The notes under the pieces: generated by a model
The model's input: the letters and a program-made list of their open reading frames with translations, nothing else
Databases searched by the model: none
Told to the model about the DNA's origin: nothing
Source of the DNA: Prostheceraeus crozeri
Lineage: Eukaryota; Platyhelminthes; Polycladida; Euryleptidae
Reading direction: 5' to 3'
Assembly: GCA_907163375.1 (NCBI GenBank)
Contig: CAJQUW010009247.1
Location: 310,001 to 374,000 of the forward strand
Length of the DNA: 64,000 bases
Program-made: the position numbers and the translations under genes
Part shown: one piece after another, positions 7,340 through 42,131 of the stretch
Layout of the letters: each line of letters opens with the position of its first letter
Position numbering within the stretch: the first letter of the stretch is position 1

Positions 7340-7890
7340 ATTAATCTGCGAGCGCTTCGGTTTCCTAGAAAGGAAGAATTGTATGCAACCTTAATATCGA
7401 AATGGCACAACTTGCTCCTTCTCGAATAGGTAATTCGTGTATCGCTTTCTATTGGAAATAGCAAACGATGAGGTGTCAGCAGAGGACACCAGAAACAGTG
7501 AGAGATGCGTGCGTGCTGTGATATCACTTCGCACACACCGAAGCACACATCGATGCCTGGCTTCGATTCAGTGTGTGCACTAAACAGTGAGAAATGCGAG
7601 GAGAGGATGTGAAATCAATAAGTGAACTAATTTTCGTACGCCTGCTACTTTCTTTAATAATGATCGGAAGGGCCAACATTATGGAGAAAGCTTATGCGCA
7701 ATGATCTGAATTCTTCGAATCTGAAGGAATTGTGGTAATCGAAGCACTTTGCTGGAACTCACATTATTCCGCAAGCGACGCACGACTTTTTTTCTTATCT
7801 CTGTAAGGTATTGGAATTCCTTTTTGCCCACTTAGTAGGTTCCTCGATGTGCCGTCAATTTCGTATTAATCACACTTCTAGCAAACCGAA
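7340..7890 (-). repeat. Dispersed repeat, copy 1 (inverted partner at 58945-59560)
   Basis: The reverse complement of this interval matches 58945-59560 along most of its length. Shared anchors include GGTTTCCTAGAAAGGA and CTTTTTGCCCACTTAG. Neither copy keeps a long open frame. The element type is unclear; the second copy lies inside a hAT-type insertion. Confidence 0.75.
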
Positions 7891-19750: not shown

Positions 19751-19800
19751 ATCCGTGGTTCAAGCGGCAACTCATACAACTGTAGACGACGCGCAAACTA

Positions 19801-21283
19801 TAGGGTGTTCAGCTAAGGACGCCGGATTTAATTTAATTGTCATAAACACAATACTAAAGATATCTTATAAATTTAACGTCTAGAATATCTGCAACAATAT
19901 GCCATTTCATTATCCACTGTGACTTTTTCATGAATTCGATGCTGAAAGTGGCATTCAGCGAGTTTTACTCATGATGATATAAAGCACTTGGCGCAGTCAT
20001 GATACTTGCCATTTGTGTCATTGTGATTACATTGGAAGCAAGCATGTATTCAACTGATCAAAGAATCCAGATTGTCAAAATGCACTACAAGCATGGGGAA
20101 TGTTTTGCAGTTACAACTCACAAGCTGAGGAGTCTGTTCGGGAGAAGAAATGCCCCAGATGAGTCGACGATTCGTCGATTAATCCAGAAGTTTAAGAAGA
20201 CCGGCTCCGTGTTGGACATCAAGCATCCTGTGCGATGTCGACCTGTGCGTTCTCAAGAAAACATCAATGCTGCAAGGGAGCGTAGAGGGAAACCCCAGGA
20301 CGTCTGTACGCCATCGGTCGCAGCAACTGGAGATTTCCAACGGATCCCTGCACAAGATCCTTCATGAGGATTTGAGTTTGCATCCTTACAAGGTTCAATT
20401 GACCCAGAAGCTTGAGGCTTGTGACAACACAGCTCGAGAACATTTTGCCAATTTTGTTCTGCAGAATCAAGAACTGGATCCCATCTTCGCCAAAAGAATA
20501 ATCTTCAGCGACGAGGCCTACTTTCATCTCGACGGCTATGTCAACAAGCAAAATTGTCGGCTCTGGGCCACGGAAAATCCTCAAGAGATTCACGAAAAGT
20601 CACTACACCCAAACAAGTGCACAGTATGGTGTGGTTTTTGGAGTGGTGGAGTCATTGGGCTATATTTTTTTGAAAACGAGAATGGAGTGGCCGTGACGGT
20701 GAATGGTGAACGCTATCGAAGGATGATAACTGAGTTTTTTTGGCCCCAATTGGAGGATTTGGAAGAAGAGGACCTGTGGTTTCAACAGGATGGTGCAACT
20801 TGCCACACTGCGAGGCAAACCACTCAGTTGCTGAGAGATAAGTTCCCCGATCGATTGATCTCCAGCAATGGCGATTACAGGTGGTCACCAAGATCTTGCA
20901 ATTTGTCTCCACTTGACTTTTTCCTATGGGGTTTTGTGAAATCACGGGCATATGAGAGCAAACCCAACACTATTGCTCAATTGAAAAATGAAATCCGAAG
21001 TGTGATAAGTGGAATCACACAAAACTTGTGTCAAAGAGTAATCGAACATTTCCTTCAAAGAATACGTGTTTGTAGTGACTGCCGAGGTGGTCATTTGAAA
21101 GATATTGTTCTTCATAACTAAATTTGTTTTTTTACTACAATAAATTGTTTTCCTTTTAAAGCGATTGTGCATACTGAAATGGCATAGTGTTGTAGATACT
21201 TTAGTCATTGAATTAATGAGATATCATCAATACTGTGGAAATAGCAACTAAATTAAATCCGGCGTTCTTAGCTGAACACCCTG
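19801..21283 (+). mobile_element. Tc1/mariner-superfamily element (DD41D type), TA target
   Basis: The inverted ends read AGGGTGTTCAGCTAAG-ACGCCGG and continue into GATTTAATTT, with one mismatch. They are flanked by TA on each side (19799-19800 and 21284-21285). The element sits inside MITE copy A at a TA that is intact in the 44-kb and 63-kb copies. At 1,483 bp with one transposase gene, size and structure fit a near-complete mariner-like element. Confidence 0.88.
20044..21121 (+). pseudogene. Mariner-like transposase, one frameshift
   Basis: From ATG 20044 the first frame encodes an N-terminal helix-turn-helix of the DUF4817 type (S-T-D-Q-R-I-Q-I-V, then D-E-S-T-I-R-R-L-I-Q-K-F). The frame changes at about 20270-20280 and the second frame runs to 21121. 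It carries the DDE domain: first D in F-S-D-E-A-Y-F, second D in Q-Q-D-G-A-T-C-H, and third D in S-P-L-D-F-F-L-W-G, with 41 residues between the last two (DD41D). The usual S-P-D-L motif before the third D reads S-C-N-L. The enzyme would cut and paste the element at TA sites; the frameshift makes this copy inactive. Apart from that lesion the domain looks complete. Confidence 0.85.
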
Positions 21284-21532
21284 TATAAACGCTCGCCCGC
21301 GCTTGTTCATAAACATTCCCCATGCTTTGACATTATCAGATCAAGTGATTTCTGACTCTTTGTGCAGCGCTTATGTACTCGCGTAGAAGTATAAACTGCC
21401 CTTAACCACTGATGTTTGGGGTGCTCCGTAGTTACGCGTGAATTATGCGTGGCATGTCACCCAGTCCAAGTTGCGTATAATATACTAGGTAGAGTAGCAA
21501 ATCAGTATTAATTAAATTCCGATTAAAGGGAA

Positions 21533-25485: not shown

Positions 25486-25491
25486 TTTATC
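25486..25491. repeat. Target-site duplication, left (TTTATC)
   Basis: TTTATC sits directly before the left inverted repeat and is repeated exactly at 42126-42131 directly after the right one. A 6-bp duplication is the length made by Polinton/Maverick integrases. Confidence 0.9.
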
Positions 25492-26741
25492 AGTAGTAAT
25501 CCCCTGACAAAATCAAGCACGGTGCGGTGCAGCGATGAGTCATCGCTGCTTAGTCATCATGCTGACTCAGCCCCCCCTCAGGAGAGGAAGGACATGGCCA
25601 AGGATGTGTTGGGAGGAATGGGTCCGTGAGGACGAAACCGTTCCCTCCCCCCTCTGGAACGAGACTTCCAACTTTAGTTCTAGCGATCGTAGAAAGTCGT
25701 GCAATAGCTCATTTGAAAGCTAAGAGTGAAAAAAATGCAGTGGAAGAAACGGCTTGTTCATATCTGCCTTTGTTTAGATGTGAGAGTGACTTTAAGATTT
25801 TTGTCCATCACCGAAAAACGACAAAGTTAGAATTTTATGAAAATGTCTGTAGCGGCTAAACGAAGCCTCGGATGGGAAAACGGAGAGCAAATTAGGACTT
25901 TGTGGCCAATTTTGGGTCTAGGAACTTGTTTCCAGCTTAATCGGAGAGAAAAAGTTCTGACCTCCCCCCCCTCTGGAACGAGACTTCCAACTTTGGTTCT
26001 AGAGATCGTAGAAAGTCGTGCAATAGCTCATTTGAAAGCCAAGAGTGAGACAAATTCAGTGGAAGGAACGGCTTATTCATATCTGCCTTCGTTTAGATGT
26101 GAGACGCCACTAAAAATTTTGGAAATTTGTGAAGTTGAAAGTTGAAAATTTTCTTCACACTGAGTCTCCACACGGGATTTTTTCATGATAATGTTAAATT
26201 GTGACCACCTTTGGCGATGAATAGCGGAGGATTGGAAGTGAATGAAGAGCTCGGGTTTCTTTTAGGGGGAAGACCGTACTTTGTTCTCTAGGATCCTATC
26301 TTTTCAGATGCGTGAAAGGTTTCGTTTCTAAATGAGAGCATGTTAAAAATCGAGTTTTTGCGCATTTTCCAAGATTTTGGATACTTTTGAAAAAACGGCT
26401 TTTCAACTCGGCTTCTGGTCATCGTAGAGAGTCGACGGATGGCTTAAATGAAAGGTGAGAGCAAGAAAACGTGACTGTCAAAATTTGAAGTCAACCGGAG
26501 CACTAGAACCGGAGATAGATGTGTTTAAAGATTTGGATGATGGATATTACGTCATCAGCTGATCGCCACAAACTATATAAGCTGGGAACCGACAGAGACT
26601 TGTCATTAAGACGAGAGCGATTGTCAAAGGTAGGTCGTCTCTCTGAAGCTCTGATGATAGCATCGGACATTCCAAATTTCGGGTTTCTGTAGGAAACCGA
26701 CTTAGAAAATTTCATGGCTGATACCAGCAAAGGCGTCAGAT
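25492..26741 (+). repeat. Left terminal inverted repeat of the Polinton-like element
   Basis: The sequence matches the reverse complement of 40876-42125 nearly base for base, until about the ATTTCATG-CTGATA point. Inside it are three related sub-repeats at 25651-25790, 25971-26108 and a weaker one at 26401-26465 (shared core ATCGTAGAAAGTCG, then GCTCATTTGAAAG). It also carries a TATA box at 26573-26580 and a leader splice donor at 26630, so it supplies an inward promoter. Confidence 0.9.
26573..26580 (+). promoter_or_regulatory. TATA box in the left TIR, with leader exon
   Basis: TATATAAG lies about 55 bases before a splice donor (AAAG|GTAGGT, intron from 26630). An acceptor TTTCGTTACAG ends at 26775, seven bases before the ATG at 26782. 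The expected start site, about 30 bases below the TATA box, gives a short non-coding leader exon of about 26605-26629. The same box is mirrored at 41037-41044 in the right TIR. Confidence 0.65.
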
Positions 26742-26781
26742 CATGAATTTACTTAGTGATATTCTTTCGTTACAGACTGCC

Positions 26782-27450
26782 ATGGCCATGAATCCTACTC
26801 CAACTGCTGCATCACTGAATCTTCAACATCTCGAGGAGTGGAATCCGAAAATTCACGGCTATCCTAACTACAAACAACAGGTGCGCTACAACGGTGTTCG
26901 ACTCTATCTCCAAACGCCGGTGGTATACTTACCAAAAGTGGATACGCAAGAAATCGTGGCGGTCAAAACCTGAGCATCCCTATTGAAAATTGGTTGCGTC
27001 AGCAGCTTGACCTTTTAGAAGACGTTGTGAGGCAAGAGGCTCTTATTCCTACTGAACTATTACAGTTGTGGCCAGAAAAGAGAACTTATTATAAACCATT
27101 GTATCGCGGCACTCGCTGCTATGTTTTGCAAAGCAAGTATTGTAAAGTCACTTCAGGAGTGACAGTTGAACAGTTAGTTGAAACAGAACTGTCATCGCTA
27201 GGTGCAGGCCTTTATTCCTTTCATATTCAGGTGCCTGCTGTTCATGTGGGACCACAATCAATCTGATGGTAATTTGATTTCTCTCAATTTGCGCATTGCT
27301 CAAATTCATCATCAACCTGAGTTAACAGGTCTTGATCACACTGAGAAAGTCATTGATTCTTGTGTCAAAGAGTGTCAAGAACCTGTCACCAAACCTAACC
27401 GTCGTCGCGCATCAAAAAAAGATGGTGCTACCACCAAAGAGAAATCTTAA
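26782..27450 (+). pseudogene. Element protein of unknown function, paralog 1 (frameshifted)
   Basis: The gene starts at ATG 26782 just after a leader-intron acceptor. It runs in three frames, with changes at about 26965 and 27262, giving roughly 220 codons. The middle and end resemble the intact gene at 29199-29765. Both have a W-x(n)-L helical segment, an I-P-x-E turn, a conserved G-x-G-(L/F)-Y-S-F-x-I followed by G-P and D-G, then a hydrophobic strand. The tail is basic (R-R-R-A-S-K-K). The fold is unknown; short alternating strands and a helix could suit a small nucleic-acid-binding domain, but that is a guess. Its last 29 bases overlap the start of the exonuclease gene. Confidence 0.6.
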
Positions 27451-28148
27451 ATATTGTAATCAGTTAGTATGTAGTGAATGTGGAAAACGCGGTCTTGCGG
27501 ATTATGTTCAATTAAAACATTGTAATCATGTTGTATGTATCTTCTGTTATGTAAAGGACAGACATCCTTGTAAAGTTCCTGCTCAATGTATTATCTTGCA
27601 ATTAAGTCTTTTTGATATTGTGGGTTGTCATCGTCATAGACAGTGAGGGAACACCCATTCAAGAATTGAGTGCTATTGCAATGACGGAAAGCGATCAAAC
27701 TGTTGTTAGCGTATATCATAGATTTGCCTACTGTCCTCCACACAAAGACGAATGGTCACGGCGTCATGTGCATGGACTTGATTCTTCTATTTCGATTCAT
27801 ATTGGATTTGTAAAAGAAACGTATTTGATAAGTGATTTCAAACGGTGGCTGTCTGGTTTTCATATTGTTAAAATATTAGGAAATGATTCTGAACGAGAAC
27901 CAACAACGTTTCAGTTGCACATTGATAATTTATATTTACCATGTTGGGTTGATCGTGTAAGACAAGACTATCATATGCATTGTAATCAAAAGAAGTTTAG
28001 AGATGAAATGATTTTTGATATGGCAATATGTTTTGGTGAGAGACATCACCTTTGCAGACCACCATCCCATTGTAATACTAGAAATAAAGCCACCTACATT
28101 GCAAAACTCTCTTCACGCTGGCATTGTAGTCTCTATGACGTTTATTGA
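27422..28148 (+). pseudogene. RING-like finger plus DEDDh 3'-5' exonuclease
   Basis: From ATG 27422 the frame gives a RING-like cysteine pattern: C-x2-C, then C-x-H-x2-C-x2-C, then C-x5-C (27450-27590). At about 27600-27640 the frame changes. The continuing 27612-28148 frame has the three motifs of DEDDh exonucleases: D-S-E followed by Q-E-L (D at 27639), I-L-G-N-D (27885), and H-x4-D in H-C-S-L-Y-D just before the stop. A C-H-rich insert (C-R-P-P-S-H-C) lies before the last motif. Such enzymes remove 3' nucleotides from DNA or RNA and serve in proofreading or end trimming. In a polymerase-bearing element, a role in replication or end processing is reasonable. The frame change means this copy is probably dead or the two parts are separate. 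Finger and nuclease may form one protein in intact relatives. Confidence 0.65.
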
Positions 28149-28421
28149 CTGTATCTATATTATTGTCAACAGCATGGGTATATGTAAAACATGTTTTTAC
28201 TCCTTGTGAATGAGTGATGATCATTTTATGAAGTGTATTCTGTACTTGTAAATTTTGTCTGATGTTGAATAAACTTACAGTGGAACATGATTGTTATTTC
28301 TGTTTTATTCATAGTGGAAGTCATTGAAGCAATATGAAATCTATAGTCACTACGTTTATGATGGCGCATCGTACACTAAGTAACCACATGTGTGATTTGA
28401 CTCTTGATCAACAAGGATTCA

Positions 28422-28778
28422 ATGGATTTTTACAAGATTGGAAACACATTTAAAATGAAGATGAATGATATGAAAGTAGTGCTAACTGAAAGTCTTCCTC
28501 TCTTCAAAAGATTGATGGAGAGTTTACAACCTCAAGATGTAAAGGGTAGACTCGTTGCTTATATAGAGTTGAAAGATTTGCAAAAACCACTTCGTTTTGG
28601 ATCCTATTGCACAGAATGGATTACTCTTAGTGATCAATTTCATGTACGACATACGGAGAAAATTATGGAGAGAATAGAAGAAACGTTGGAAGGAAATGTG
28701 TACGTTGTTAAACATATCATGATTCAACTGAGTGTGTTTACATCCATGACTTTGTTTGATGGTCGACACATTGTGTAG
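28422..28778 (+). CDS. Small element protein, function unknown
   Basis: This is an intact 118-codon frame from ATG 28422 between the exonuclease and the second paralog, on the same strand. It is rich in charged helix-like segments and ends in a hydrophobic V-Y-V-V-K-H-I-M-I-Q-L strand followed by D-G. That end is faintly like the G-x-Y-S-F-x-I end of the two paralogs. No catalytic motif, transmembrane segment or signal peptide is seen. I do not recognise the family. Its preserved frame and codon-like composition suggest a real gene. Confidence 0.5.
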   Translation: MDFYKIGNTFKMKMNDMKVVLTESLPLFKRLMESLQPQDVKGRLVAYIELKDLQKPLRFGSYCTEWITLSDQFHVRHTEKIMERIEETLEGNVYVVKHIMIQLSVFTSMTLFDGRHIV

Positions 28779-28846
28779 GTGCAATAAAGATTTCTTTTCA
28801 CTGAGTATTTTGTAATGGTGTATAGAGCAACATGATTCATTCCGCT

Positions 28847-28983
28847 TTGTTAGATAAATGAATGCGTCTTTGTTCGAGAAAAGGGGCGTGTCACAACATG
28901 AGTCATTGCGCTTTGTGCATTACTATCAGGCTCTTTGTTAGATAAATGAATGCGTCTTTGTTCGCTAGAAGGGGTGTGTCACT
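28847..28983 (+). repeat. Direct repeat of about 50 bp between element genes
   Basis: Two copies (about 28847-28897 and 28931-28983) share CTTTGTTAGATAAATGAATG followed by CGTCTTTGTTCG and GGGG-GTGTCAC. They lie in the 420-bp gap upstream of the gene at 29199, so they may be promoter-associated. Confidence 0.75.
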
Positions 28984-29146
28984 AAAGTCTTTGTGAGGAC
29001 TTGAACGACTTTGTAAGAGGGCAGTCAGTCATAGGGAAGGTTTCCACCCACGCAGTCAAAAGTTCACGTACGATAACTCTTTGTCACGTAACAAAGACAA
29101 GGAAAACATGAAAAGGGAAACGCATGTGATTGGAGCTAGGTCTGGT

Positions 29147-29153
29147 TATAAAA
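29147..29153 (+). promoter_or_regulatory. TATA box of the second-paralog gene
   Basis: TATAAAA, preceded by CTGGT, lies 46 bases before the first base of the ATG at 29199. A start site about 30 bases downstream would fall in the CAATCATTTCC region and leave a short 5' UTR. This spacing decides in favour of ATG 29199 over upstream in-frame starts. Confidence 0.6.
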
Positions 29154-29198
29154 CGGACGACTGAGCACAAGGCAATCATTTCCGTCCTTGCGCTAACC

Positions 29199-29765
29199 AT
29201 GCAGTTGCTCAAAGCCATCAACTCCTCTGCTCTCGCACTAGGTACACTGAACTCCCTTACTCTAGCATCGGGTAAAAATGCTTTCAATCAAAAGATAACT
29301 CATCATGGAGAAGTCGTGACCATAAAAACTCCAAATCATCGGATGGCTTATCTAAAGGTTATGTCAGCAAAGTACGGACTCGCCGTGTGTGTACAGTTAG
29401 ACTATTGGACACGGTTGCAATTCAATACTCTTGAAACATTCCTGAAAGAAAATCTCACCATTCCCAAAGAAATTGTTCGACACAATGGGAAGCGGCCACA
29501 AGTTCCCATCATGGAAAGACGATACATGTATGTTCATATGGATAGACACTGTCTCATCATCCATGAAAAGGAGGGCAGCGAATTCGACTTACTCAATTGC
29601 AAACCACTCCCCATTTTGGGAAAAGGATTCTACTCTTTCGAAATTAAAATTCAAACCATCTACATGGGTCCGCGCAGGGACGGAATGTTGTTTACGTTGA
29701 ATCCCTATCTTGTCTCCATAACCTTTAAAAATGATGTCCATGTTGATGATGATCAACTACAGTAA
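29199..29765 (+). CDS. Element protein of unknown function, paralog 2 (intact)
   Basis: This is an intact protein of 188 residues from ATG 29199. A central segment alternates hydrophobic residues (Y-L-K-V, then L-A-V-C-V-Q-L-D-Y-W) and is followed by an amphipathic helix (L-E-T-F-L-K-E-N-L). The C-terminal third has G-K-G-F-Y-S-F-E-I-K-I, M-G-P and D-G-M-L-F. The last two blocks match the frameshifted gene at 26782-27450, so the element carries two members of one family. The strand-strand-W-helix order is loosely like the PC4/Sub1 single-stranded-DNA-binding fold, but that is only a resemblance in pattern. There is no signal peptide or membrane segment. It is acidic at the extreme end (D-V-H-V-D-D-D). 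Confidence 0.6.
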   Translation: MQLLKAINSSALALGTLNSLTLASGKNAFNQKITHHGEVVTIKTPNHRMAYLKVMSAKYGLAVCVQLDYWTRLQFNTLETFLKENLTIPKEIVRHNGKRPQVPIMERRYMYVHMDRHCLIIHEKEGSEFDLLNCKPLPILGKGFYSFEIKIQTIYMGPRRDGMLFTLNPYLVSITFKNDVHVDDDQLQ

Positions 29766-29921
29766 CACTCTCCACACACTGAGAACGCACCATCGGTCTT
29801 CATGAGACCAAGGCATAACGGCCACCGCATCAAGAAAGAAAATGTACACTCACCATGCCACACATGAACATGACTCTCTCCTTCTTTCTTAGGCATGCCA
29901 TTCTTCACTCAGGTTTGAATC

Positions 29922-30551
29922 ATGTGGAAATTATCAGCATGCCTCTATGCATCATGGAAAAGTCAGTGTGTTACATTTCATAATACGAAACGTCAACTTC
30001 AGATAACTCTAGAACGCCTTCAACTGCGAAGGTTACATCGCGCTATCCTATCCCACTCTTGCCGTGTCATTAATGTAGGAGAATGCATTGTATTTATTCG
30101 CATTCAAGAGATGATTCTACATAATGATCACTGCTACATCGTGATTCCAAAACCCTCTTGGGAAAAGTATAAAAGGGAAGTTCACTCCACCCTCATCTCA
30201 TTTGTGAGTCATGCTCCCCATCCGCATCATCAACGCCATGCGCGAAATGAATCTCAGAAGAGACGTCGATTTAGAACAGTCGCATATCCATCTGCCCAAT
30301 TCAGTATATCATCGCGGTTGTCCACAAATGTTGGTTATTCGCATGAGCAACGGTCGAAATCTTCAAATCTTTCGCTGCGGCAAAATCCAAGTCCTGGGAA
30401 ACCTTTCTCATTTCGTGATGCAGTCCATGTGTTACGAAGTCGTCAAGAAAATGCGAACACTCATGCCTCATCTACGCCTCAGTCCCCTGACATTGAAGAA
30501 TATAGTAGTGTCTGTTCAATTGAAGATGTTAGTGAATCTAGCAAACATTAA
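29922..30551 (+). CDS. Possible element gene, 5' part only credible
   Basis: A 209-codon frame starts at ATG 29922. The first 95 codons or so contain a strand-like I-V-F-I-R-I-Q-E-M-I-L segment reminiscent of the C-terminal block of the two paralogs. From 30211 it overlaps the TBP-like gene in another frame. There it becomes rich in S, R, H and P, which looks like out-of-frame reading. The true gene probably ends near 30205, where a stop exists in a neighbouring frame. I do not recognise a family. Confidence 0.35.
   Translation: MWKLSACLYASWKSQCVTFHNTKRQLQITLERLQLRRLHRAILSHSCRVINVGECIVFIRIQEMILHNDHCYIVIPKPSWEKYKREVHSTLISFVSHAPHPHHQRHARNESQKRRRFRTVAYPSAQFSISSRLSTNVGYSHEQRSKSSNLSLRQNPSPGKPFSFRDAVHVLRSRQENANTHASSTPQSPDIEEYSSVCSIEDVSESSKH
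30168..30175 (+). promoter_or_regulatory. TATA box of the TBP-like gene
   Basis: TATAAAAG lies 43 bases before ATG 30211. It is identical to the box found on the other strand at 37028-37035. Start sites would fall at about 30198-30205, giving a very short leader. Confidence 0.6.
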
Positions 30552-30750
30552 AACCAGTAATCATTGTATATTTTATGAAACTGAACTCTTTCCTGCTGCT
30601 CTGATTCGGAAGTGGCATCCTGTACATATTGCAGTGTTTCACAACGGACATTGTATCATGACTGGTTTACGTGATATCAGTAAAGTAGCTGACATTGTTA
30701 AATCTTTAATGCGTTATCTGTATGAGACACCGTTAATAGAATCGTGTTAA
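30211..30750 (+). CDS. TATA-binding-protein-like two-repeat saddle protein
   Basis: This is an intact 179-residue protein with two direct repeats, at residues 4-84 and 93-172, each matching one half of the eukaryotic TBP core. Repeat 2 has Y-E-T-E-L-F-P followed by a basic residue, then V-F-H-N-G and T-G-L-R. These correspond to TBP's Y-E-P-E-L-F-P, I-F-x-S-G-K and T-G-A-K. Repeat 1 has V-Y-H-R, V-I-R-M, I-F-R-C-G-K and a final helix. Three of TBP's four DNA-kinking phenylalanines are retained (F54, F127, F143); the fourth is a proline (P38). There is no long N-terminal tail. TBP bends TATA DNA and nucleates transcription complexes in the nucleus. A role as element-specific initiation factor is an inference from the TATA boxes before several neighbouring genes. 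It overlaps an uncertain frame at 29922-30551. Confidence 0.85.
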   Translation: MLPIRIINAMREMNLRRDVDLEQSHIHLPNSVYHRGCPQMLVIRMSNGRNLQIFRCGKIQVLGNLSHFVMQSMCYEVVKKMRTLMPHLRLSPLTLKNIVVSVQLKMLVNLANIKTSNHCIFYETELFPAALIRKWHPVHIAVFHNGHCIMTGLRDISKVADIVKSLMRYLYETPLIESC

Positions 30751-30782
30751 TCACATGATGTGTTTTGAATGAGTCATCGCAA

Positions 30783-30990
30783 TGAACTATCGCCCACACA
30801 CTTGTCGGTGAAAAGGTCATCAACAAGGTTCATAGCTTTATGATGAATCAGCACTATTTATAGACATGAAATGATGTCCACACACGTTTCGGTGAAAAGG
30901 TTAAACAAGACTGATTAGATTCTTATCTAACTGACTAGTGCTTCACCACTTCATGTGTCAGAGCTATTTATAGACATGAGTCAGCAAAGT
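30783..30990 (+). repeat. Short direct repeats after the TBP-like gene
   Basis: CACACAC-TGTCGGTGAAAAGG-type sequence occurs at about 30793 and 30880. CTATTTATAGACATGA occurs at about 30855 and 30965. The unit of about 90-110 bp is repeated twice with drift. It lies in the convergent gap between the two gene blocks. Confidence 0.65.
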
Positions 30991-31054
30991 TGTTGATGTT
31001 TTTAAGCCGAAGAAATTGTCATGATGTTACGTTCGTTAGTGAGGATGATAACTT

Positions 31055-31310
31055 ACAAACTCTGACATGGTTTTGACTTTATTTTATACTTTACCTATCT
31101 TGCAAACAGTGAAATGCTTGTCACTTTACTTTATACTTCACCTATCTTGCAAACTCTGAAATGATTCTAACATTAATTCAAACTTTACAATCATCAACTT
31201 TATTCCTAACTTTACAGACGTCAACTTTATTTCTAACTTTACAAACAATGAAATGATTCCGACTTCATTTTATATTTCACCTATCTTACAAACAGTGGCA
31301 TGCTTATGAC
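31055..31310 (+). repeat. Degenerate tandem repeat in the convergent gap
   Basis: About five diverged units are built from ACTTTA-TTTATACTT, CACCTATCTTGCAAAC and -GTGAAATG. It occupies most of the non-coding space between the TBP-like gene and the polymerase 3' end. Confidence 0.7.
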
Positions 31311-31396
31311 AGTATCACCAAGTCAGTCCCACCTATTTGAACCGCAACTTTATGTCAAAAGAGAAACGAGACAGTCTGTACATGATATGTTATTGA

Positions 31397-31791
31397 ATGA
31401 AAGATATTTCATTACAGTCACACATAGTTAATACTATACACGGAGAAAGCAAAGTCACTCATGTGCAGGGAGAAAACAAAGTCACTGATGTGCAGGGAGA
31501 AAACAAAGTCACTGATGTGTCGGAAACTGTACAGGAACAAAACAAAGTCAGCAAAAGCACTGGATACTCACTCCATCGATGATATGCTGTGATCAGGAGT
31601 TGGACGCATGTTACAAGGCACTTACTCACAACGCCCCATTGAAAACGCCATGGAGTAAAAAGCAAAACATCAACCACAACAGAGAGGAAGCATTCATCAT
31701 CATACATCGCCGGACGGAGGAAGAGAAAGTTTCTTTCTCTTGGGTGGAGGTAGATGAGTGTCTGGATGGCCGTGCGGTAATGAGTGGTTAG
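31397..31791 (+). other. Doubtful frame over a 30-bp tandem repeat
   Basis: Three copies of a 30-bp unit containing GGGAGAAAACAAAGTCACT run from about 31437 to 31525. They encode V-Q-G-E-N-K-V-T-D repeats in one open frame (31397-31582), followed by another open frame to 31791. It could be a small repeat-bearing protein with one frame change, or non-coding. No family is recognised. Confidence 0.3.
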
Positions 31792-31831
31792 GACTCATCC
31801 AGCATCGCTTGTCTTCCCAAGCTGAGAGACC

Positions 31832-34800
31832 TCACTTCCTAAACGTCGTTGTTCTGACTTGATGCGACTGTGATTTTAAAATGGTCATTTCTACTTTTTT
31901 AATTTTAGGTGAATCTAAGGCATCTTGATAGTCCCTATGTGTCATTTTTCTAACGATTGACTTCGAGATGCCTTTCGCACGTTTAATAGAAAGCTCTGAG
32001 GATTTTAGCTTCATGGAGTACATCTTGGGACGAAGCAAGATCATCTCCTCTATCTGTTTGCCGGCACACTCATCCTTGAAGCAGCCAAGCTTCGCTTTAT
32101 TTGTGTAGAGTAAAGCGGATGGTCAGTGGGATAGCTGGAACTATCAAACTTGGGTGCTAAATATTTTAAAATGTCTTCCTGCTTGACTTGGCTCGTGGTT
32201 GTCAAAGCTAGGAAAAGCTGTCTGTATCGCCGCCTACTAATTCCACATGTTGTATCAATGGACAAGTTTTAGAGGTGTGGTAAAACAACTTGTACATTTC
32301 TAACTTGGAGTGATCCAAGACAGCTTGACCGACATGAATGGGCTTGCAAAGTTCTACTTTGGATTTTGACATTTTAAAACCAGTAATGTCTTCGGAAATG
32401 ACATCATGGTGACAAAACAACGGTGAGCGGCATAACTTGATACTCGTTTTCGGATCAGTCACGATACGATAGTCCATGCGCTTTCTTACATCCTCCATGG
32501 TTTTACCAAAGAGGGCATTATTCTTAAATTTAAAGAAGTCCTTTTCGAAAGGATTCTTGGATTCAGCCCGTTTCTTACTATTAAATTCTATATGCGGTTT
32601 TAGAAAGGGCTTCTGCCTAAACGGGATAGCGCGATGGACTTTGTCAAGTTGCATCCCTATACCTAGATAGAATTTGAGGATGGAATAGTGCACGATATAA
32701 TGCTGCTTGTTCAATTGGGTGAGCAACAACTTCCTAGTGGGTTTATATTTTAAGTCATTTTCCGCCTCATATTGCTTATTGTGTTCTTCCATATAAGAAG
32801 AGAACATATCTGGACTGACTATGCCAGATTCGGGTGCGAGAGGAAAATCAACTGTTCTATTCTTAATACATTCTGGATGGATGAGGTCGACTTTAAATAA
32901 ATAACCTATGTCGGCCTCATCTCCCAGTGCCATGATGCGTGCTGGATTGGAGAAGTATTCAATGTCATGGGGCTCTACCCACTGGATCTCAGACTGTGGC
33001 AAAATTATTTTGGCCTATGTACATATTATTTTGGTCCATGTACATTAAATGCGTGGTCGAGCCTATGTCTTGGGTGCTGTTCACAACATGTTTGTTAACA
33101 AATTTTAAGCCTCCCCTAATACCACGTTCAAATAACGTGTACATTTCTGCATCTTGCAGTAAATGTATTCTCTCTTTAGTCATCTTGAAGACTGACTGAT
33201 AGGACAGACCCGGCAGACTAACAAAATGGACGGGGTCTAAGGCGTCTTGTTCTAATGTGACTTTCCTAAAAGTCTCAGACACGTCAGCCAACAGATAGAC
33301 ATCTAATTTTAAGTAGGTAAGCATGTAGTCACCAAAAGTGTGACACCTAAATTCTAACCATGCTTGCTCTGCATGCCTATAGTAATCCAGCGAACAGTCC
33401 TCACCCGTCAAATCATTTTTAAATTTATCGATGGACGGAAGGGATGTTTCTTTTAATGTATCCATTGAACTAAAATAACTATAAGGAAACACCCCTTTCC
33501 GTCGCATGAGACTGTCACTTATTCTTTCTTTAAATGTTGAGTGAGGGGAAGTGTTTCTAAATTATTAGCCAACGCGCCTAAGGAAGAAGACATAAATTGA
33601 AAACTATCTAGAAACTTAATGTCATAGAAGACAGGCTTCCCCTCCATCGTCTTATCTACTTGTACTTTGGCAGTGATGCACATAAATTTTGCCTTACTTC
33701 GTGCAATCACTTTGGATGACCAGGATTTCATTTTACCGAATCCATGGCGAATGATGATGTGAGCATCACAACATTTAAAGTTATGGAAGATGACGGGGAG
33801 CGTTCGCCGTTTGAGCCTAAGTTTCATGTTACATTTACTGCATAAGGCAGACCTAAATTTACCACTGAGATGGCAATGGTCCCTCACTTTCTTATGTTGC
33901 TGATCATCAAAGGATGAACAGCAGCGGGGACATTCCGTGGTCCTATCAAATTTGAATTTATCGGCTTCTGTGAAGCACATGGGTTTCCTAGTCAGCTCCG
34001 TTTCATAGCGTTGATGAAAACGGGCTTTCCTATCTAAAAAGTTGAGGAAGTTTTCAACGCACTCCTCGCATTGCCACACATGCATTTTATTTTGATTCCT
34101 ATAATATGGATGCCAAACTTCATAACAGGCAATGGCTGCTGGCTCATGACTTAGGTCTTCTTGTTCAATGTAACATTCAATGTCCGCATAGATGGTACAT
34201 ATGGGAATGAGCTCATTGCCATTTTCCTCATACCTATAAAATTTATCTTTGGGCATGACTTCCATTTGAAGTTTACCCCGAGAGCACCACTCACAATGCT
34301 GTTCAAAAAATGGTTTAGACCTGAAGCGCCGTGTGCAGGGATCACAGTAATAATGTTTGTTGTCACAACTTTGCTGGTAGCGATACAACTTTGAAATTTT
34401 AGGAATGCCACAATAATGCCATTCTGGGTGGTTGTCACTATAGACTAGGAGAAGATTGACAACCCGGTCGAAGTTACTTTGGCGGTTGTTATATCTAACG
34501 CCCTTCAGACCATTTTCCCAGAGATGGACGACGATCTTAATTTTATTGAGTTTTTCAAATTGGGCGATGCCTTTAACATCTAATGTGTTGACATCTAACC
34601 CGTCAAACTTAAGCTCATCGTCCCATTCGCAATACTTGGTGACTCTTTGACGACTCCTATCTATATCATTATAGTGAAGAATGGAGAGGACGGCATACTT
34701 GAAACACTGGGACTGACACTCTACATTGATGACAGCTTTTTTGTCAGCCAGTGCTTTGGGGAGGGTAAAACAACCACTCCCTTGCAAATTTTCTAAACGA

Positions 34801-36518
34801 TTGATTTTAATGTCTACTTTCTCTATCCCATCAAAGACCAGACCGCTGTCTCTTCCATTAAATTTATTTAAGTTGCTGACGAGATAGGTCGCATGTCTCT
34901 CTATCCACTCGTTTACATCACCTATCAGATCAGCAGCACAGAAGGCTATCCTAATGGTCACAGTGGACTCTACTTCTCCCGTGCTACTGTCTACCTTATT
35001 GAAACGAGCAGTGAGATAGAACCTGCCTTTGAGTAAAAATCTATCTAAGCTCGCCAACATTTGATGAATCAAACCTATATTATTCATCAAGAAAGGATGA
35101 ATATCTTGTACAGGTTCAGAGCTTTGTAACTCATAGCCGCGAACGAGCCTCTCAAGGGAAAACTTGCTCAGCCTTAGAGTGACGTTGTTGTCAGTGTAAA
35201 GCTCAGGGGAATGTGTGTGACAGAGTGTGTGCGAAGAAAGAACAAACTCTGTGGGAAAGGTCTTCCGACACGAAGAACAGGAAAAGCCGACGTGCGATGA
35301 AGGATGCTTCCTACCTGTTGTTGTCTGTGGTTGCCTCACACTGCCACAGGAACCGCCTTCGATGTGGACTCGCAAGTTGGTGCTGTTGTAGAACGTGCGT
35401 CCACAACCTTCACACTTGGGTCGTTCAGGGATCGGTCGGCGCCTTCTCCAGATCTCCTTTCGCTTTTGGACAGCGAGAATGCCGGTGTCGTCGAAGGCAG
35501 AATGGCCTCGCGAAGACCTGCCCACAGTCTGTACAGCTGAGCTGTCGAGCCATAGGTCCTTCTCTCTCCCTGACACCTCCCTCCTCGATTGCGATCGCCT
35601 CTCCCACTATCTCTAACTCCTCCTCCAGCAATCTCTCCACCGACTGAACGGAGAGGAGAGGGAGGTCGTTTGCTGCAGGTGGTGGTGGTGGCGATGTTGG
35701 GATGACGATGGGGCGGGAGGGAACGTCACCGTCCAGGATAACAGTCGCCAGATCTGTTGAGAAAAAGAGAAAAGAGATAAGCAACATGATCATAATTTCA
35801 AGTTTGAAGTCTGATCCCCCTTTTCCCAATCACGGTTACTTACCATCCACTGAATTGATCTTCGGCAACACCGATGGACGCGGAGGAGGCAAGAGTGGGA
35901 CGCGAGCCGAAGATGGAAGGGTCCTGGGCTTGGGTGTTGGAGGGACGCGGTGACGAGGAGCAGGGACTGGTGCAGGGGGCGGACCAGGCGGTGGAGGTGG
36001 GGCGATGACGATGCCCGAGCTCGAGAAAGGAGTTGGACCTTGAGCGGAGGTAGACGGGTGGGAGGGTAGGGCCGGAAATTCCTCGCGGTATTTCCGCCTC
36101 GTGGCTTATTCCCACTTCTTCATCTTGGCCAAGTCTGTAGAGAGGAAAGAGAGATTAGATAATGAGACAAGGATGATGCAAAGGATCTGAAACAGTCTAA
36201 ACATGAGATGTTAAAGATACTTACACTTGCCAAGCCGCTCATAGGCTTCCCCGATTGCTCCTTGGGTGACGGGTTCCCCTTTACGAATACATTCATGCAC
36301 TGAAAAAGAATGACAGCAAAGATAAGCAGAGATAAAATTTGGATTCGGTTTAAACATGAACAAAATAAGGGAGGGGCTCTTGACTTTAATTAAGATGTGC
36401 ACCCTAATGATGTTAGTAATAGAGTGAGTCAGCCTTGATACAAATACTTACATTGCTCGATGGTGGCCTTCTCCATCTCAGCAGCAATGCGGTAATTTTC
36501 AACTTTGTTGAATTCCAT
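31832..36518 (-). pseudogene. Protein-primed-type DNA polymerase B with zinc fingers, broken
   Basis: Minus-strand gene with four coding exons: 36518-36452, 36299-36225, 36134-35844 and 35753 onward. All three introns are GT-AG and all joins keep frame. Exons 1-3 encode a short helical N-terminus and a proline-rich linker. Exon 4 encodes C2H2-like fingers, then the polymerase. Visible motifs: Exo I D-I-E (about 34195), an endonuclease VII-like D-H-C-H/C-S-K-C finger (about 33880), Exo II N-F-K-C-C-D, Exo III Y-L-K-L-D, Pol A M-D-Q-N-N-M-Y, an F-G-K-T-M-E-D block and Pol C D-T-D-S. This order is that of Polinton and related virus polymerases, which copy the element using a protein primer. Lesions: TAA at 36106-36108 and frame changes near 35435, 33525, 33005, 32218 and 32080. 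All catalytic motifs survive, so decay is recent, or some lesions are sequencing errors. Confidence 0.88.
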
Positions 36519-37027
36519 TTTCTTGTTCGGATGTAGTTGATTAATTGAATCACTGAAAAATTACTTCAATCACTGAAAAGGAAAGATGAGAATCGTTTCA
36601 TTTGCTTAGTCAACGTTTTTCATGGGAACAATCATTAAAGTGACATCTAATGAATTACATTTCACTCTACTCCATATCATGAAGACTAACCTTTGTCGAA
36701 TGGCTGAAGTACTCTGACCTGGCGAGAGAAAGCGTCACGTTGAGTATGAAGTCGAACGCCCAACATGACCAACGACTCAGAGGTTTCGGTCTAGCAAGCG
36801 ACGAACAACCCGTGCAACGCAATCCCTCTACGGCAGTACCCACCGTCCCGAAGGAACGCTCGAGCAAAGGAGGTATTACAGCGATGATATGTTTTATGAG
36901 CAGAAGTGAATCTCTTGATAGCAAGAGACTATTCAACTTGATAGCAAGACGAAACAACCTGATAGGAGGAGCTCACCGACACTCACCTTGTGAAAGATAA
37001 ATGTGAAGAGCAGAGCTGGTGCACTGC

Positions 37028-37035
37028 CTTTTATA
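37028..37035 (-). promoter_or_regulatory. TATA box for the polymerase transcript
   Basis: TATAAAAG on the minus strand is followed about 42 bases later by a splice donor (CACAAG|GTGAGT, intron from 36986). A second donor-like AAAG|GTTAGT lies near 36691, and acceptor-like TTTTCAG sites lie at about 36555-36580 just before the polymerase ATG at 36518. This suggests a non-coding leader spliced to exon 1. Confidence 0.55.
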
Positions 37036-37173
37036 TGATTTTTCTAAGCGGTGAATGGATGAGACCCTTCGACCAATCGCATACGAGCTAGAGTTCCCGA
37101 TGTGCGCACACACATTTGTAACGCGTTCTTGAAATCGTCTTAGGCAAACATGATGTTTAGCAATAGACTCAGC

Positions 37174-37625
37174 CATGGCACCTGAAGTCAATACATTGAA
37201 ACATGATGATTGCACGATTCGTTTTCATCAAGAGAACTTCGGAGGCTTAATAGAAGATTAGATCCTTGAGTTTCAAAGGGAGGAGACAGAATTGGAAGCA
37301 TGTTTAGACTATACACGAGAAATATTTACGGAGTTGATATCTTATTTCAAGGACAGTAACATCAAGGCTCACTTAATTGCACATTTAATTCACTCATTTT
37401 CCACAAGGTGAAGCAGCGGAAAGTTTTGACATACAATTTCGTTCCTACGGACAAGAATATGTTACTGATGCTTCTGAGTGTTATACACGACATCTGCAGA
37501 AGATTATTTCTCGGATGGATGACTTTCATGGTTATGCCAATCATTTGCTTCTAAATAAAAAAAGCCATATTGTCATAGCTATTAGTAAAGTGGGTTTCAA
37601 TGATGTTAAATCAAAGTCCAAATAA
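37174..37625 (+). pseudogene. Broken element gene, family unknown
   Basis: From ATG 37174 the frame is protein-like for 28 codons, meets TAG at 37258-37260, and continues in the same frame with helical, charged sequence (R-E-I-F-T-E-L-I-S-Y-F). A frame change near 37405 leads to an equally protein-like frame (S-Y-G-Q-E-Y-V-T-D, C-Y-T-R-H, R-M-D-D-F) ending at 37623-37625. The stop overlaps an AATAAA signal at 37621-37626. About 150 codons in total. The coding character on both sides of each lesion argues for a real gene that has decayed. I do not recognise the product. It is divergent from the polymerase gene, whose promoter lies about 140 bp away. Confidence 0.5.
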
Positions 37626-37803
37626 AGTATTTTTCATGACACTTGTGTTTTGCTAACTATACTTTAGAGGCAACGAGCCTCTACTGATACCATGTAGTTG
37701 ATTTCTATAAACGGTAGACTTGTTACCCTTTGTGGTAGTACTATTCATCAATGGTTTATCATGTTGAGTTCAATCTTCGAAATAAGTATATTTGGAACAT
37801 CAT

Positions 37804-38070
37804 ATGTCTCGCTATGTTTTTTCTGCTGATTTTAGTAACTTACGTTTTCTTCAGTACTTGTATAGCAATCGACTGCGATGCAGTAAAGTAACTTATGCGT
37901 TCAGAGCTTGTTCACTACCGAAGAGAGAAGTCTTTGATGTGTTGCGTGTGGCGCAAGGGGGGCCTCTCGTTTCATCCCTTCATCATTTCTTCTCCGTGAT
38001 AGAGACAGTTCTTGAAAGAACTCATGGTTCATTCTCAGATAACGTAAGCAATGGAGAATTTAAAAAGTAA
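37804..38070 (+). CDS. Small hypothetical element protein
   Basis: An 88-codon frame begins at ATG 37804, with aromatic and basic residues in the first half (F-L-Q-Y-L-Y) and L-H-H-F-F-S-V-I-E later. A donor-like AAC|GTAAGC at about 38042 could splice the last codons away, so the real C-terminus is uncertain. No domain is recognised. It follows the broken gene at 37174 on the same strand. Confidence 0.35.
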   Translation: MSRYVFSADFSNLRFLQYLYSNRLRCSKVTYAFRACSLPKREVFDVLRVAQGGPLVSSLHHFFSVIETVLERTHGSFSDNVSNGEFKK

Positions 38071-38449
38071 CCTGTGGCAGATAGCTAAGATTCAACCGAT
38101 TGGCGTTCAAAGTGCTACGTTGAGCGAAGAGACCACAACGACCGCTGGAAAGTCGGATTAAGGTAAGTCTCAAGCCCTTGGCACACTCATCACTACGATA
38201 TCATCCGCTGTCTCAAGAGAGATCGCCCACCAACAGGAAGAATTATACCGAAGTTCTCCGTGCCATGCAACGTTAAAATTGACTGATAGCTGATGTAACT
38301 TTGTGATTCTATTTTTATTTATATGATAGATTCAGTCAGACCGAAGCCTGTCCAGAGCAAACCGCGAGGAGGTACTATCATGTCTTGCCCCATGGTGGCC
38401 CTTAAGAGGACCGATGGTTCGTTCTCGGGATGATGGGGGAATATGAGAC

Positions 38450-39563
38450 TCAAGCTTGTCGCTTCGTCTCCGGCTCGTTGACGGAAGCAGGTGGGCGCTT
38501 CTCTTTGATATCTGTAAAGAAAGAAGTTGTTAGTTATCATCTTGACTTCTAAGTTACTTATTTTTAACTTACAGAGCTTCTCCGGACGTGGTTCATGTGG
38601 GAATCCTGTGATGTCTTCCGAGTGGTTGAATATAAAGTAAAGACAGTCAACACCCTTCTTCAGCCTGGAGTAACACCGCTCGCCTCTTCCTCGCTCGTAG
38701 AGAAGTGGCTCCGCTATCACCTCTCGCCTCTTGATTGGGATGCGTAGACGACTTGATCTCTGTCGCTTCTTATCACTGCCTTCTACCTTGCAATGGAGCT
38801 CCTGATTGCTCTGAATCACCTTCCCCAACTGCCTCCGCAACCCTTCGATCTCCTCTCTCATCCGCCTCATCTCCTTCTCAACTAGCAAGCCTTCTTCTCT
38901 CGCATTGCGCGACAGGTTCTTGAACCTTTCACGCTCCAACTCGACTTCTTTTTCATTTAACGCCTCCGTCACCTTCTTCAGCTCTTGTGTCATTCGCGAA
39001 AAATTTTCTGATTTCTGCTTATAGTAGAAAGCATCTTCCTTCCACCTAGCAAGATCTTTTTCCAGCTTTTCATGCTTAGCAAGCAGTGGTGGATGATCTT
39101 GAAATGTGCGACATTGAGTCACAATTCCGCTACTACTCGTTGACTCTGTCTCGTTATCGAGATCAACTTTGTTGGCTCCTTCCTCAGCCTCCCCCTCACT
39201 CTCACTACTGGTCTCACTGAGATCAGAAGTCGACTCTGGTGCTGACTCGCTCAGGGCTGGAGTAGCTTCTGGTGGTACAATTGCAGCGACTGCCTGCTGA
39301 TTTTCAAGCGTCTTCAGTTCTATGGCAAATAATCTTTCTTTCTCTGCCTCTGTGAGCTCTACCTGCTCACATTCGCTGTGTGTTGAGTGCCATTCCGTCG
39401 GTGTCTCTATTAGACGTGAAACTTGGTGTCTGCTGCAAAAGTAGCTCAACCCACCTACCTGCCTCTTATTCGCACACTTGTGCTTTTTAAATCCGTCACT
39501 CTTAAATACTTTTGAGCAGGAGCACAATTTGTACTTTGTTCGCACATTTGCTGCTTTAGGCAT
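38450..39563 (-). CDS. Zinc-finger and coiled-coil element protein, spliced
   Basis: Two coding exons: 39563-38573 and 38511-38450, with a GT-AG intron (donor GTAAGT, acceptor TTTCTTTACAG), give about 350 residues. The unspliced frame would run on to 38319. The N-terminus has a C-x-C/K-H-K-C finger-like cluster (about residues 13-30) and a second C/H-rich stretch. An acidic serine/glutamate linker follows (about 95-150). A long coiled coil spans about 165-270, followed by a basic segment with R-R and K-K clusters. Zinc finger, acidic linker and coiled coil suit a DNA-binding or structural protein, but no function is established. A TATA box (39806-39813) and a leader intron (39755-39569) precede the ATG. 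The frame is intact, unlike the polymerase. Confidence 0.65.
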
Positions 39564-39805
39564 TTTTTCTGAAATGAAAAGGGAAAAACAATGATTATAA
39601 GTCCGTAAACGTTTGATAGCAAACGATTGATTCCTTGTTTATAAAACCTAGTTTATGAAACTCTAAAGATTGTTCGCATTCGTTTGATAGCAAACGATTG
39701 ATTCCTAATTAATGAAATTCTAAAGCTTCTTAACAAACTTTGTCGGAGCACTCACCGTTCGTCATGCAACTCGAAACAGGAGTGAAGACTAGAGAAAAGA
39801 CGCGG

Positions 39806-39813
39806 TTTATATA
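39806..39813 (-). promoter_or_regulatory. TATA box and leader intron of the coiled-coil gene
   Basis: TATATAAA on the minus strand is followed by a leader ending ACG|GTGAGT (donor at 39755). An acceptor CATTTCAG ends at 39569, five bases before ATG 39563. The arrangement matches that of the left TIR promoter and the polymerase promoter. Confidence 0.6.
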
Positions 39814-40875
39814 CCCAGTGAGCACAAAGCCATGATTCAGACCTTCCTTGTTTGGCCATGCGTTTGACATGACAACAGCGGTTTTGCCATTTATGGGCAT
39901 TGGCAGTTACCGTGCTTTCAGTTACCAACTCCCAACACAAAGACGGGTTACCCTATGACGCGAAAAGGATTGACGTCAATGCCTGCAGTAAGCCTCTCAT
40001 TTTTACCAAGTTACAATGAGAAACAATAGACGTTGCCAACCTTGAGTTACTGAGGCTAGACGAGATTTCACAAAGACCTGATAGCAGAAGTCAGGTTGAT
40101 AGCAAGCGTTTTGGTGTTAAGCTCTTGAATCCGTTACAGGCATTACTCAGAGGGGATCATATCCCAGCTCCAAGGCCTCGACCCACAAATCCAACCACGG
40201 GCGGACAGAGCGTGCGTCATGTCACTGTGTTGGTATCCGGGCCCCGATTTTGACATAAAAACCGGTGGAGTTATTTACAAGAGGAAACATCCCAAGTCGT
40301 TGCTTTGATCAGCTTGATAGCAAGCCGTGATTTACAAGTGTTTTGCAATGGAGATGTTTAGATGCCACCCATGACAAGATAGCTAAGACTCAACCGATTG
40401 GCGTTCAAAGTGCTACGTTGAGAACTGTGTCAAATGCGCAACATGAGTTGCCCCAGCGGTTTCGGTCTAAAATATGACACACTCTCTTGCCACACTTATC
40501 ACTGCGGCATCATCCGCCGTCCCGAAGGAACACCCTGTCAGTGGAATAATACAGCAAAACTCTCCGTGTCATGCTCGCTTTCAGTGAAAAGCCGCTTGGT
40601 TCATATGTGGCTCAGACATCATGACAGATCCTTTAGTTGACTTCAACAGGGTCGAATACCCCAGAAATCCTCCAAAAATAGTGAATATAATTTTTTTAAC
40701 TTTTTAGCACTACTTATGAAATTTTATAAGTAGTTTATCACTTAAGGCAGGTCAATAGCGACCGAACCTTTTTTGAATCAAGTCAAACGGACTTGTAGAA
40801 GCAAAGTTACAAGCCTTTAAAGTTTTGGAGTCTTTTATGGCCTGGAGACAAAGGCCATCTCCTGGCGAACCTCTA

Positions 40876-42125
40876 AGTCTGACCCCTTAGCTGATATCAG
40901 AAATGAAATTTTCTAAGTCGGTTTCCTACAGAAACCCGAAATTTGGAATGTCCGATGTTATCATCAGAGCTTCAGAGAGACGACCTACCTTTGACAATCG
41001 CTCTCGTCTTAATGACAAGTCTCTGTCGGTTCCCAGCTTATATAGTTTGTGGCGATCAGCTGATGACGTAATATCCATCATCCAAATCTTTAAACACATC
41101 TATCTCCGGTTCTAGTGCTCCGGTTGACTTCAAATTTTGACAGTCACGTTTTCTTGCTCTCACCTTTCATTTAAGCCATCCGTCGACTCTCTACGATGAC
41201 CAGAAGCCGAGTTGAAAAGCCGTTTTTTCAAAAGTATCCAAAATCTTGGAAAATGCGCAAAAACTCGATTTTTAACATGCTCTCATTTAGAAACGAAACC
41301 TTTCACGCATCTGAAAAGATAGGATCCTAGAGAACAAAGTACGGTCTTGCCCCTAAAAGAAACCCGAGCTCTTCATTCACTTCCAATCCTCCGCTATTCA
41401 TCGCCAAAGGTGGTCACAATTTAACATTATCATGAAAAAATCCCGTGTGGAGACTCAGTGTGAAGAAAATTTTCAACTTTCAACTTCACAAATTTCCAAA
41501 ATTTTTAGTGGCGTCTCACATCTAAACGAAGGCAGATATGAATAAGCCGTTCCTTCCACTGAATTTGTCTCACTCTTGGCTTTCAAATGAGCTATTGCAC
41601 GACTTTCTACGATCTCTAGAACCAAAGTTGGAAGTCTCGTTCCAGAGGGGGGGAGGTCAGAACTTTTTCTCTCCGATTGAGCTGGAAACAAGTTCCTAGA
41701 CCCAAAATTGGCCACAAAGTCCTAATTTGCTCTCCGTTTTCCCATCCGAGGCTTCGTTTAGACGCTACAGACATTTTCATAAAATTCTAACTTTTTCGTT
41801 TTTCGGTGATGGACAAAAATCTTAAAGTCACTCTCACATCTAAACAAAGGCAGATATGAACAAGCCGTTTCTTCCACTGCATTTTTTTCACTCTTAGCTT
41901 TCAAATGAGCTATTGCACGACTTTCTACGATCGCTAGAACTAAAGTTGGAAGTCTCGTTCCAGAGGGGGGAGGGAACGGTTTCGTCCTCACGGACCCATT
42001 CCTCCCAACACATCCTTGGCCATGTCCTTCCTCTCCAGAGGGGGGGCTGAGTCAGCATGATGACTCAGAAGCGATGACTCATCGCTGCACCGCACCGTGC
42101 TTGATTTTGTCAGGGGATTACTACT
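40876..42125 (-). repeat. Right terminal inverted repeat of the Polinton-like element
   Basis: Reverse complement of 25492-26741 with few differences. It contains the mirrored TATA box (41037-41044) and splice donor, so it has the same inward promoter, pointing toward the coiled-coil gene. Confidence 0.9.
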
Positions 42126-42131
42126 TTTATC
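42126..42131. repeat. Target-site duplication, right (TTTATC)
   Basis: Exact copy of 25486-25491 directly after the right terminal inverted repeat. Confidence 0.9.

Follow-up and report, generated by a model that had tools for sequence, protein, structure and literature searches.

A mobile element in the genome of the polyclad flatworm Prostheceraeus crozeri encodes a two-lobed relative of the TATA-binding protein (TBP). The gene lies within a stretch of 64,000 nucleotides, hereafter the window, in an element of 16,634 bp (25492-42125) that is bounded by long terminal inverted repeats (TIRs) and carries a B-family DNA polymerase (PolB). The reading I favour, and hold to be on balance probable, is that this is an old animal Polinton/Maverick gene kept by selection, whose divergent product probably binds TATA boxes in the Pol II promoters that the element itself carries. 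Viral TBPs and Polintons are known singly, while the combination of the two appears to be new; to my knowledge, no Polinton has been credited with a transcription initiation factor of its own.

The TBP-like protein

The gene at the centre of this analysis is the following.

30211..30750, plus strand: intact TBP-like gene, 179 aa (PF00352, PDB sequence matches, fold, relatives)

The first-pass annotation had described an intact 179-residue protein with both TBP half-repeats, and had proposed a profile search and a comparison with the TBP saddle as checks. Both bear the description out. The frame is open throughout, and PF00352 matches it significantly in two stretches, with an E-value of 4.1e-20 and a score of 71.9 bits for a Pfam cut-off of 22.9. 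In a phmmer search of the PDB, the best match was 1mp9 (E=2.7e-10), and the 35 distinct sequences returned up to E=10 are named as TBP or TBP fusions, the exception being 4wzs_D, which bears a locus name only. The NCBIfam TATA-box-binding models also match, under their strict cut-offs, and a profile alignment to the TBP core gave E=4e-13. The AlphaFold2 model, built on a 46-row alignment, has a mean pLDDT of 92.9 and a pTM of 0.83. It adopts the saddle fold (TMq 0.70-0.77 to TBPs), and Foldseek returned 44 PDB matches at E<=1e-3, from 3.3e-13, all of them by title TBPs or TBP-containing complexes, at 19-25% identity. The strength of these profile and structure matches answers the doubt raised in the annotation itself, that the likeness to TBP might prove insignificant. 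Public data hold 90 relatives of the protein, at 39-96% identity; the 46 aligned proteins are the window protein (P0001) and 45 of these. IMG/VR yielded no relatives of the TBP, the PolB or the capsid-like piece described below, and GTDB genome contigs yielded none either. A chance ORF is ruled out by the profile match, the fold and the conservation.

Three of the four DNA-kinking phenylalanines had been placed at their expected positions, and the alignment to the TBP core agrees: F54, F127 and F143 fill three positions and Pro38 stands at the fourth, so that the set of four used as a mark of the TBP family is represented by three in the window protein. Among the 46 aligned proteins, F54, F127 and F143 are invariant and P38 is nearly so. 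The C-terminal stirrup, E-x-E-L-F-P, is kept as well, E123, E125, F127 and P128 being invariant and L126 nearly so. In cellular TBP, this stirrup presumably holds the two acidic residues that are critical for contact with TFIIB. The element protein thus resembles cellular TBP and TRF2 in its two-repeat PF00352 fold, in its stirrup and in the DNA-contact positions of the C-terminal lobe, which are largely kept. It differs from them in its identity of about 19-27%, in the replacement of the fourth phenylalanine by proline and in having no N-terminal domain; its gene, moreover, is single-exon, mobile and present at more than a thousand sites. With a proline for the fourth phenylalanine and a degenerate N-terminal lobe, the protein may bind DNA weakly or in an altered way. 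According to an excerpt of PMC12209930, the Giardia TBP also lacks the key phenylalanines, and it prefers single-stranded DNA; Pro38 therefore bears on whether DNA is bound in the canonical way and leaves family membership unaffected.

The TBPs of giant viruses such as Heterosigma akashiwo virus 01 and Terrestrivirus have the same fold as the element protein but differ widely in sequence, a structure comparison with BFVD giving 42 viral matches at E<=1e-3 with 7-17% identity. The gene wsv303 belongs to white spot syndrome virus. It appears as a TATA-binding protein in a nimavirus gene table, also for endogenous nimaviruses of crustaceans (PMC10871703, in part); unlike the present element, nimaviruses are a family of large dsDNA viruses. 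Mirusviruses likewise encode a TBP, reported in 59% of their genomes (excerpt of PMC10132985), and in the excerpted text of PMC10675990 and PMC10132985 TBP belongs to mirusvirus or mirusvirus-like material; these are large plankton-infecting viruses and not mobile elements of animal genomes. ORF24 of KSHV, as described in part of PMC12529657, mimics TBP: it has a TBP-like domain, directs the transcription of viral genes and depends on its phenylalanines; the two acidic residues critical for TFIIB contact in cellular TBP are absent from it. ORF24 has a further DNA-binding C-terminal domain, whereas the Polinton protein is a bare core that keeps E-x-E-L-F-P. Among the papers listed in searches of open-licence literature, none reported a Polinton/Maverick with a TBP: the legend of a vertebrate Maverick figure names ppolb, atp, pm, pz, pro, Mcp, pw, mcp and int, with TBP absent (PMC8097293, in part), and the accessible portions of PMC10120064, PMC11071308 and PMC8097293 mention neither TATA nor TBP, those of PMC10675110 no TATA.

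The carrier element, its copies and a second family

The other features of the element and its flanks are listed here in order, apart from the overlapping frame and the TATA boxes treated below.

25486..25491: left target-site duplication TTTATC, 6 bp (flank sequence)
25492..26740: left TIR, beginning AGTAGTAATCCCC (BLASTN to the right repeat and repeat search)
26722..27450, plus strand: g2 remnant in more than one frame, a 241-247-aa ORF in several other copies (ORFs)
27612..28148, plus strand: g3, no assigned product, 176 aa in several other copies (ORFs)
28404..28778, plus strand: g4, of one paralogous set with g1 and g8, no assigned product; several other copies have a 140-aa ORF (ORFs)
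29193..29765, plus strand: g5, product uncharacterised, paralogue of g2 (ORF; g2-g5 BLASTP E=2.6e-16 on copy L037)
31832..35606, minus strand: DNA polymerase of the B family, broken into several frames, with C2H2 fingers and a part like endonuclease VII (ORFs, Pfam, relatives)
38319..39563, minus strand: 414-aa ORF, coiled-coil-like by eye (ORF; Pfam matches all under cut-offs)
40878..42125: right TIR (BLASTN and repeat search)
42126..42131: right target-site duplication TTTATC, 6 bp (flank sequence)

The carrier had been annotated as a Polinton-like transposon, which stands for its TIRs, its 6-bp duplication and its PolB; the integrase and capsid genes that would complete the likeness were not recognised. 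The TIRs are 1.25 kb long and 99% identical (1235/1249), start AGTAGTAATCC and begin AGT. Long TIRs beginning AG and a 6-bp target-site duplication, both found here, characterize Polinton/Maverick elements; a survey of vertebrate Mavericks puts TIR length at 46-1,447 bp and the duplication at 6 bp (PMC8097293). With PolB, these are the features that the window element has in common with Polinton/Maverick elements and adintoviruses, from which it differs in having no recognised integrase or capsid gene. The PolB region stays under the Pfam cut-offs in its matches to Endonuclease_7 (E=7.7e-5) and DNA_pol_B_2 (E=3.7e-4), and has 31 relatives in public data at E<=1e-3. As first noted, the TBP frame is intact while the polymerase is broken, 179 codons being open in the former and the latter lying in several frames at 31832-35606. 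Twenty Pfam queries of window ORFs gave no match to an integrase, ATPase, protease or capsid, a set that includes some ORFs twice with another start, covers part of the window ORFs and may let spliced genes escape; ten ORFs from related copies likewise gave no such Pfam match. The element is therefore Polinton-like in its ends and polymerase, not in its recognised gene content. In PHROGs and NCBIfam, TBP and endonuclease VII were the only matches that rose above chance.

The small genes offer some further observations. g5, with a single relative found, is not informative; it has the motif G-x-G-F-Y-S-F in common with g2, and a DNA-binding role for the pair is only a guess. g1, g4 and g8 are three small, mutually similar paralogues (L037 8856-9359 and 6212-6634; L038 5576-6028 and 7590-8501), and a weak likeness links g1 to the N-terminal region of PolB (E=1e-5), which looks like the multiplication of a domain linked to PolB. 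At 36120-36540 on the minus strand, GT..AG splice-like signals are visible by eye between short open stretches, which suggests an intron-containing element gene upstream of PolB. Elsewhere in the window, ORFs in two frames at 19999-21121, which I take to be a mariner-type transposase, lie between two inverted repeats that are 79% complementary (19799-19926 and 21158-21285), and another inverted pair of segments, 90-94% complementary, lies over 51 kb apart at 7329-7770 and 59105-59562.

The genome surveyed comprises 14,165 contigs that total 2.05 Gb. A 38-nt piece of the TBP gene, with up to 3 mismatches allowed, occurs at 1,359 places (681+678), and the reversed-pattern control at 0. Among the best 150 of 11,313 candidate places for the TBP query, a sample ranked best-first and so biased to good copies, 147 are free of stops, and the 149 other than the window copy show 94-97% identity. 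TBP is within 5 kb of 48 of the 53 PolB places among the matches listed (46 through 116 of the 150 TBP places and 2 through places of the 38-nt pattern); these 53 include open PolB frames of up to 1,380 codons in other copies. The region from g2 through TBP is common to all 10 high-ranking copies, and the PolB side continues in 9 of them, not in L039/L040. Matches to the TIR region in ten copies are at about 69 to 91%. g1-g6 and TBP keep the same order across copies, with some genes missing or broken (g2 in L035, g4 in L031, PolB in L033). The annotation had named a linked polymerase in several species as support for its claim; the linkage is established in this one genome only. Among the public relatives of TBP and of PolB, a comparison by eye of their longest contigs showed no length common to both sets.

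A second family of TBP genes is present in the same genome. With a host-type TBP query, at least 147 further TBP-like places were found at 23-27% identity to the query, at least one of which belongs to the first family, as it is also matched by the 38-nt pattern. In the nine highest-ranking loci with flanks (L044-L052), the second-family TBP is about 45% identical to the first. Within 1.5 kb of it stand a protease-like ORF (7/9 loci), a capsid-like ORF (8/9) and a second structural-looking ORF (9/9), and all nine loci have at least two of these three protease-like/capsid-like neighbours, a further likeness to Polinton/Maverick elements and adintoviruses. The protease-like ORF matches Peptidase_C48 (Ulp1/C48) with E=0.006, under the cut-off, and the cysteine protease S273R of African swine fever virus with E=0.0044. 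The capsid-like labels stand for a resemblance to Polinton and adintovirus proteins: these ORFs had no credible match in Pfam or the other libraries searched, and the predicted structure of the capsid-like piece (pLDDT 36) is too poor to use. Since even the capsid-like ORFs of the second family have no credible Pfam match, the missing capsid/protease match in the window element weighs little.

Selection, ancestry and an overlapping frame

Pooled over 14 distinct sequences from 20 copies, which are close relatives of one another, pN/pS of the TBP gene is 0.199. Between the window copy and the 19 others, mean dN is 0.0154 and mean dS 0.0663, giving a dN/dS of 0.23. A tree of 51 proteins sets 49 element-type TBPs (the 46 aligned rows and three second-family proteins) apart from host TBP and TRF2, with a very long branch between; the tree is without archaeal, mirusvirus or nimavirus TBPs, and the position that it gives to host TRF2, a long row, is uncertain. 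The two TBP families of this genome fall in different subclades among the relatives. The host genome has its own TBP exons, 86-87% identical to a Drosophila-type query, and a TRF2-like gene. That the gene might be a host exon captured in this copy alone, a doubt entered with the original annotation, is dispelled by the 1,359 sites and the scored copies, by the 48 of 53 PolB places, by the second family and by the long branch of the tree.

Part of the TBP gene is shared with another reading frame.

29922..30551, plus strand: g6, a 209-aa ORF in another frame, over the first 112 TBP codons (second-family homologue; synonymous shuffles)

The second family has a g6 homologue, an ORF of 220 aa (E=4e-16), the overlap with TBP being 112 codons in the first family and 108 in the second; in L052 of the second family the overlapping pair lies at 1664-2323 against 1447-2148. 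Shuffling of synonymous TBP codons left the g6 frame open in 1/5000 trials for the first family and 0/5000 for the second. Since the frame almost never stays open after such shuffles, an accidental overlap is unlikely. pN/pS of TBP is 0.180 in the overlapped part and 0.400, on few changes, in the rest. Of the variable sites in the overlapped part, 10 are at third positions of TBP codons, with 4 each at first and second positions, so that the TBP frame looks more constrained than g6. The likeness of g6 between the families may, inside the overlap, be partly a shadow of TBP conservation. A likeness of g6 to the coactivator PC4 was suspected and then dropped, Pfam giving no support.

Candidate promoters and the role of the protein

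A motif search of the element located these TATA boxes and Inr-like sites.

26574..26581, plus strand: TATATAAG box in the left TIR; Inr-like TCATT, A at +31
30168..30175, plus strand: TATAAAAG box, 43 nt upstream of the TBP start; Inr-like TCATT, A at +32
37028..37035, minus strand: TATAAAAG box; TCACA, A at +31
39806..39813, minus strand: TATATAAA box upstream of the ORF starting at 39563; TCACT, A at +30
41037..41044, minus strand: TATATAAG box in the right TIR

The element contains nine TATAWAWR sites against 3.6-3.9 expected under a first-order Markov model (Markov-1), a number reached in 1 of 100 simulations. TCABW with its A at +30 to +32 follows five of the nine, against 0.15 expected, and five was reached in 0 of 300 simulations; this Inr rule was set after the sites had been looked at, and a single TIR promoter, present in both repeats, accounts for two of the five. 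In density, TATAWAWR reaches about 5.4 per 10 kb inside the element, which is below the 8.2 and 9.6 counted on the outside, and the rest of the window has 42 such sites in 47 kb, 4 of them satisfying the Inr rule. The TATA/Inr pair at the TBP position recurs in 9 of 10 fetched copies, L029 having none. TATAAAAG stands upstream of TBP in 18 of the 19 first-family loci with an anchored start (1 of 20 has none), at 43 nt in 17 and at 45 nt in one. It does so too in 7 of the 8 anchored second-family loci (1 of 9 being unanchored), 43 nt from the presumed start codon. Conservation of this box has two possible causes, since it also encodes a kept Y-K-R in the overlapping frame.

A role for the protein in transcribing the element, one of the two suggested in the annotation, would fit this promoter evidence. 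The bare TBP core encoded by the element would act in the nucleus, binding the TATA boxes of the element's Pol II promoters, perhaps in preference to others, and would bend the DNA with three phenylalanines, the fourth place being taken by proline. The kept E-x-E-L-F-P stirrup would then recruit host TFIIB and Pol II, and transcription of the element could then rely less on host TFIID.

The same stirrup, kept while the N-terminal lobe is degenerate, would also suit a protein that binds TFIIB/TFIID partners or host TATA boxes unproductively and so diverts host transcription in the element's favour, and more than a thousand gene sites could supply it at a high dose. The invariance of F54, F127 and F143 across the 46 aligned proteins suggests, however, that DNA bending is still under selection, and the element has TATA promoters of its own, which makes a decoy or competitor rather unlikely. 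It is less likely still that the TBP fold now serves replication or packaging, through recognition of an origin or terminus or binding of single-stranded DNA at the TIRs. In favour of such a role, the TATATAAG box lies in both TIRs, the TBP gene travels with PolB, and the preference of the Giardia TBP, itself without the key phenylalanines, for single-stranded DNA (PMC12209930, in part) offers a parallel; yet five of the nine TATA boxes lie about 30 nt before Inr-like sites and none at the very termini, and among the kept residues are acidic ones of the TFIIB-contact region of cellular TBP.

Two further readings would deprive the gene of any such role. The frame could be open in present copies only through their youth, as the 94-97% identity of the 149 best-scoring other copies and the already broken polymerase of the window copy would allow, but a pN/pS of about 0.2 among copies, the dN/dS of 0.23 given above and the conservation of residues across both families and the aligned relatives leave it very improbable that the gene lacks a function. 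Strongly disfavoured, and the least probable of all, is recent capture of a host TBP or TRF gene as a mere hitch-hiker. The host does have TBP exons and a TRF2-like gene, and the element is in many copies; against this stand a stem of several changes per site between element-type and host TBP/TRF2, the 90 relatives in public data with identities down to 39%, the two families in one genome at about 45% identity, and the contrast between a host TBP split into exons and an element gene that is one ORF.

The reading preferred here, of an old and selectively kept TBP acting on the element's own promoters, can be extended in a way that I advance tentatively, as falling a little short of probable. 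TBP may be a stable core gene of a widespread animal Polinton lineage and, with the TATA/Inr promoters, may make up a pre-initiation system of the element's own, with direct recruitment of host TFIIB and Pol II; a mobile TBP gene of this kind, at more than a thousand sites of which many are open, could also affect promoter use in the host. Polintons are seen as a source group for many eukaryotic DNA viruses. A Polinton TBP kept by selection, in two families within one genome and with many relatives in public data, would show that small elements can carry core initiation machinery, and makes testable both promoter choice by nuclear mobile elements and the entry of TBP into larger DNA viruses, mirusviruses and nimaviruses among them.
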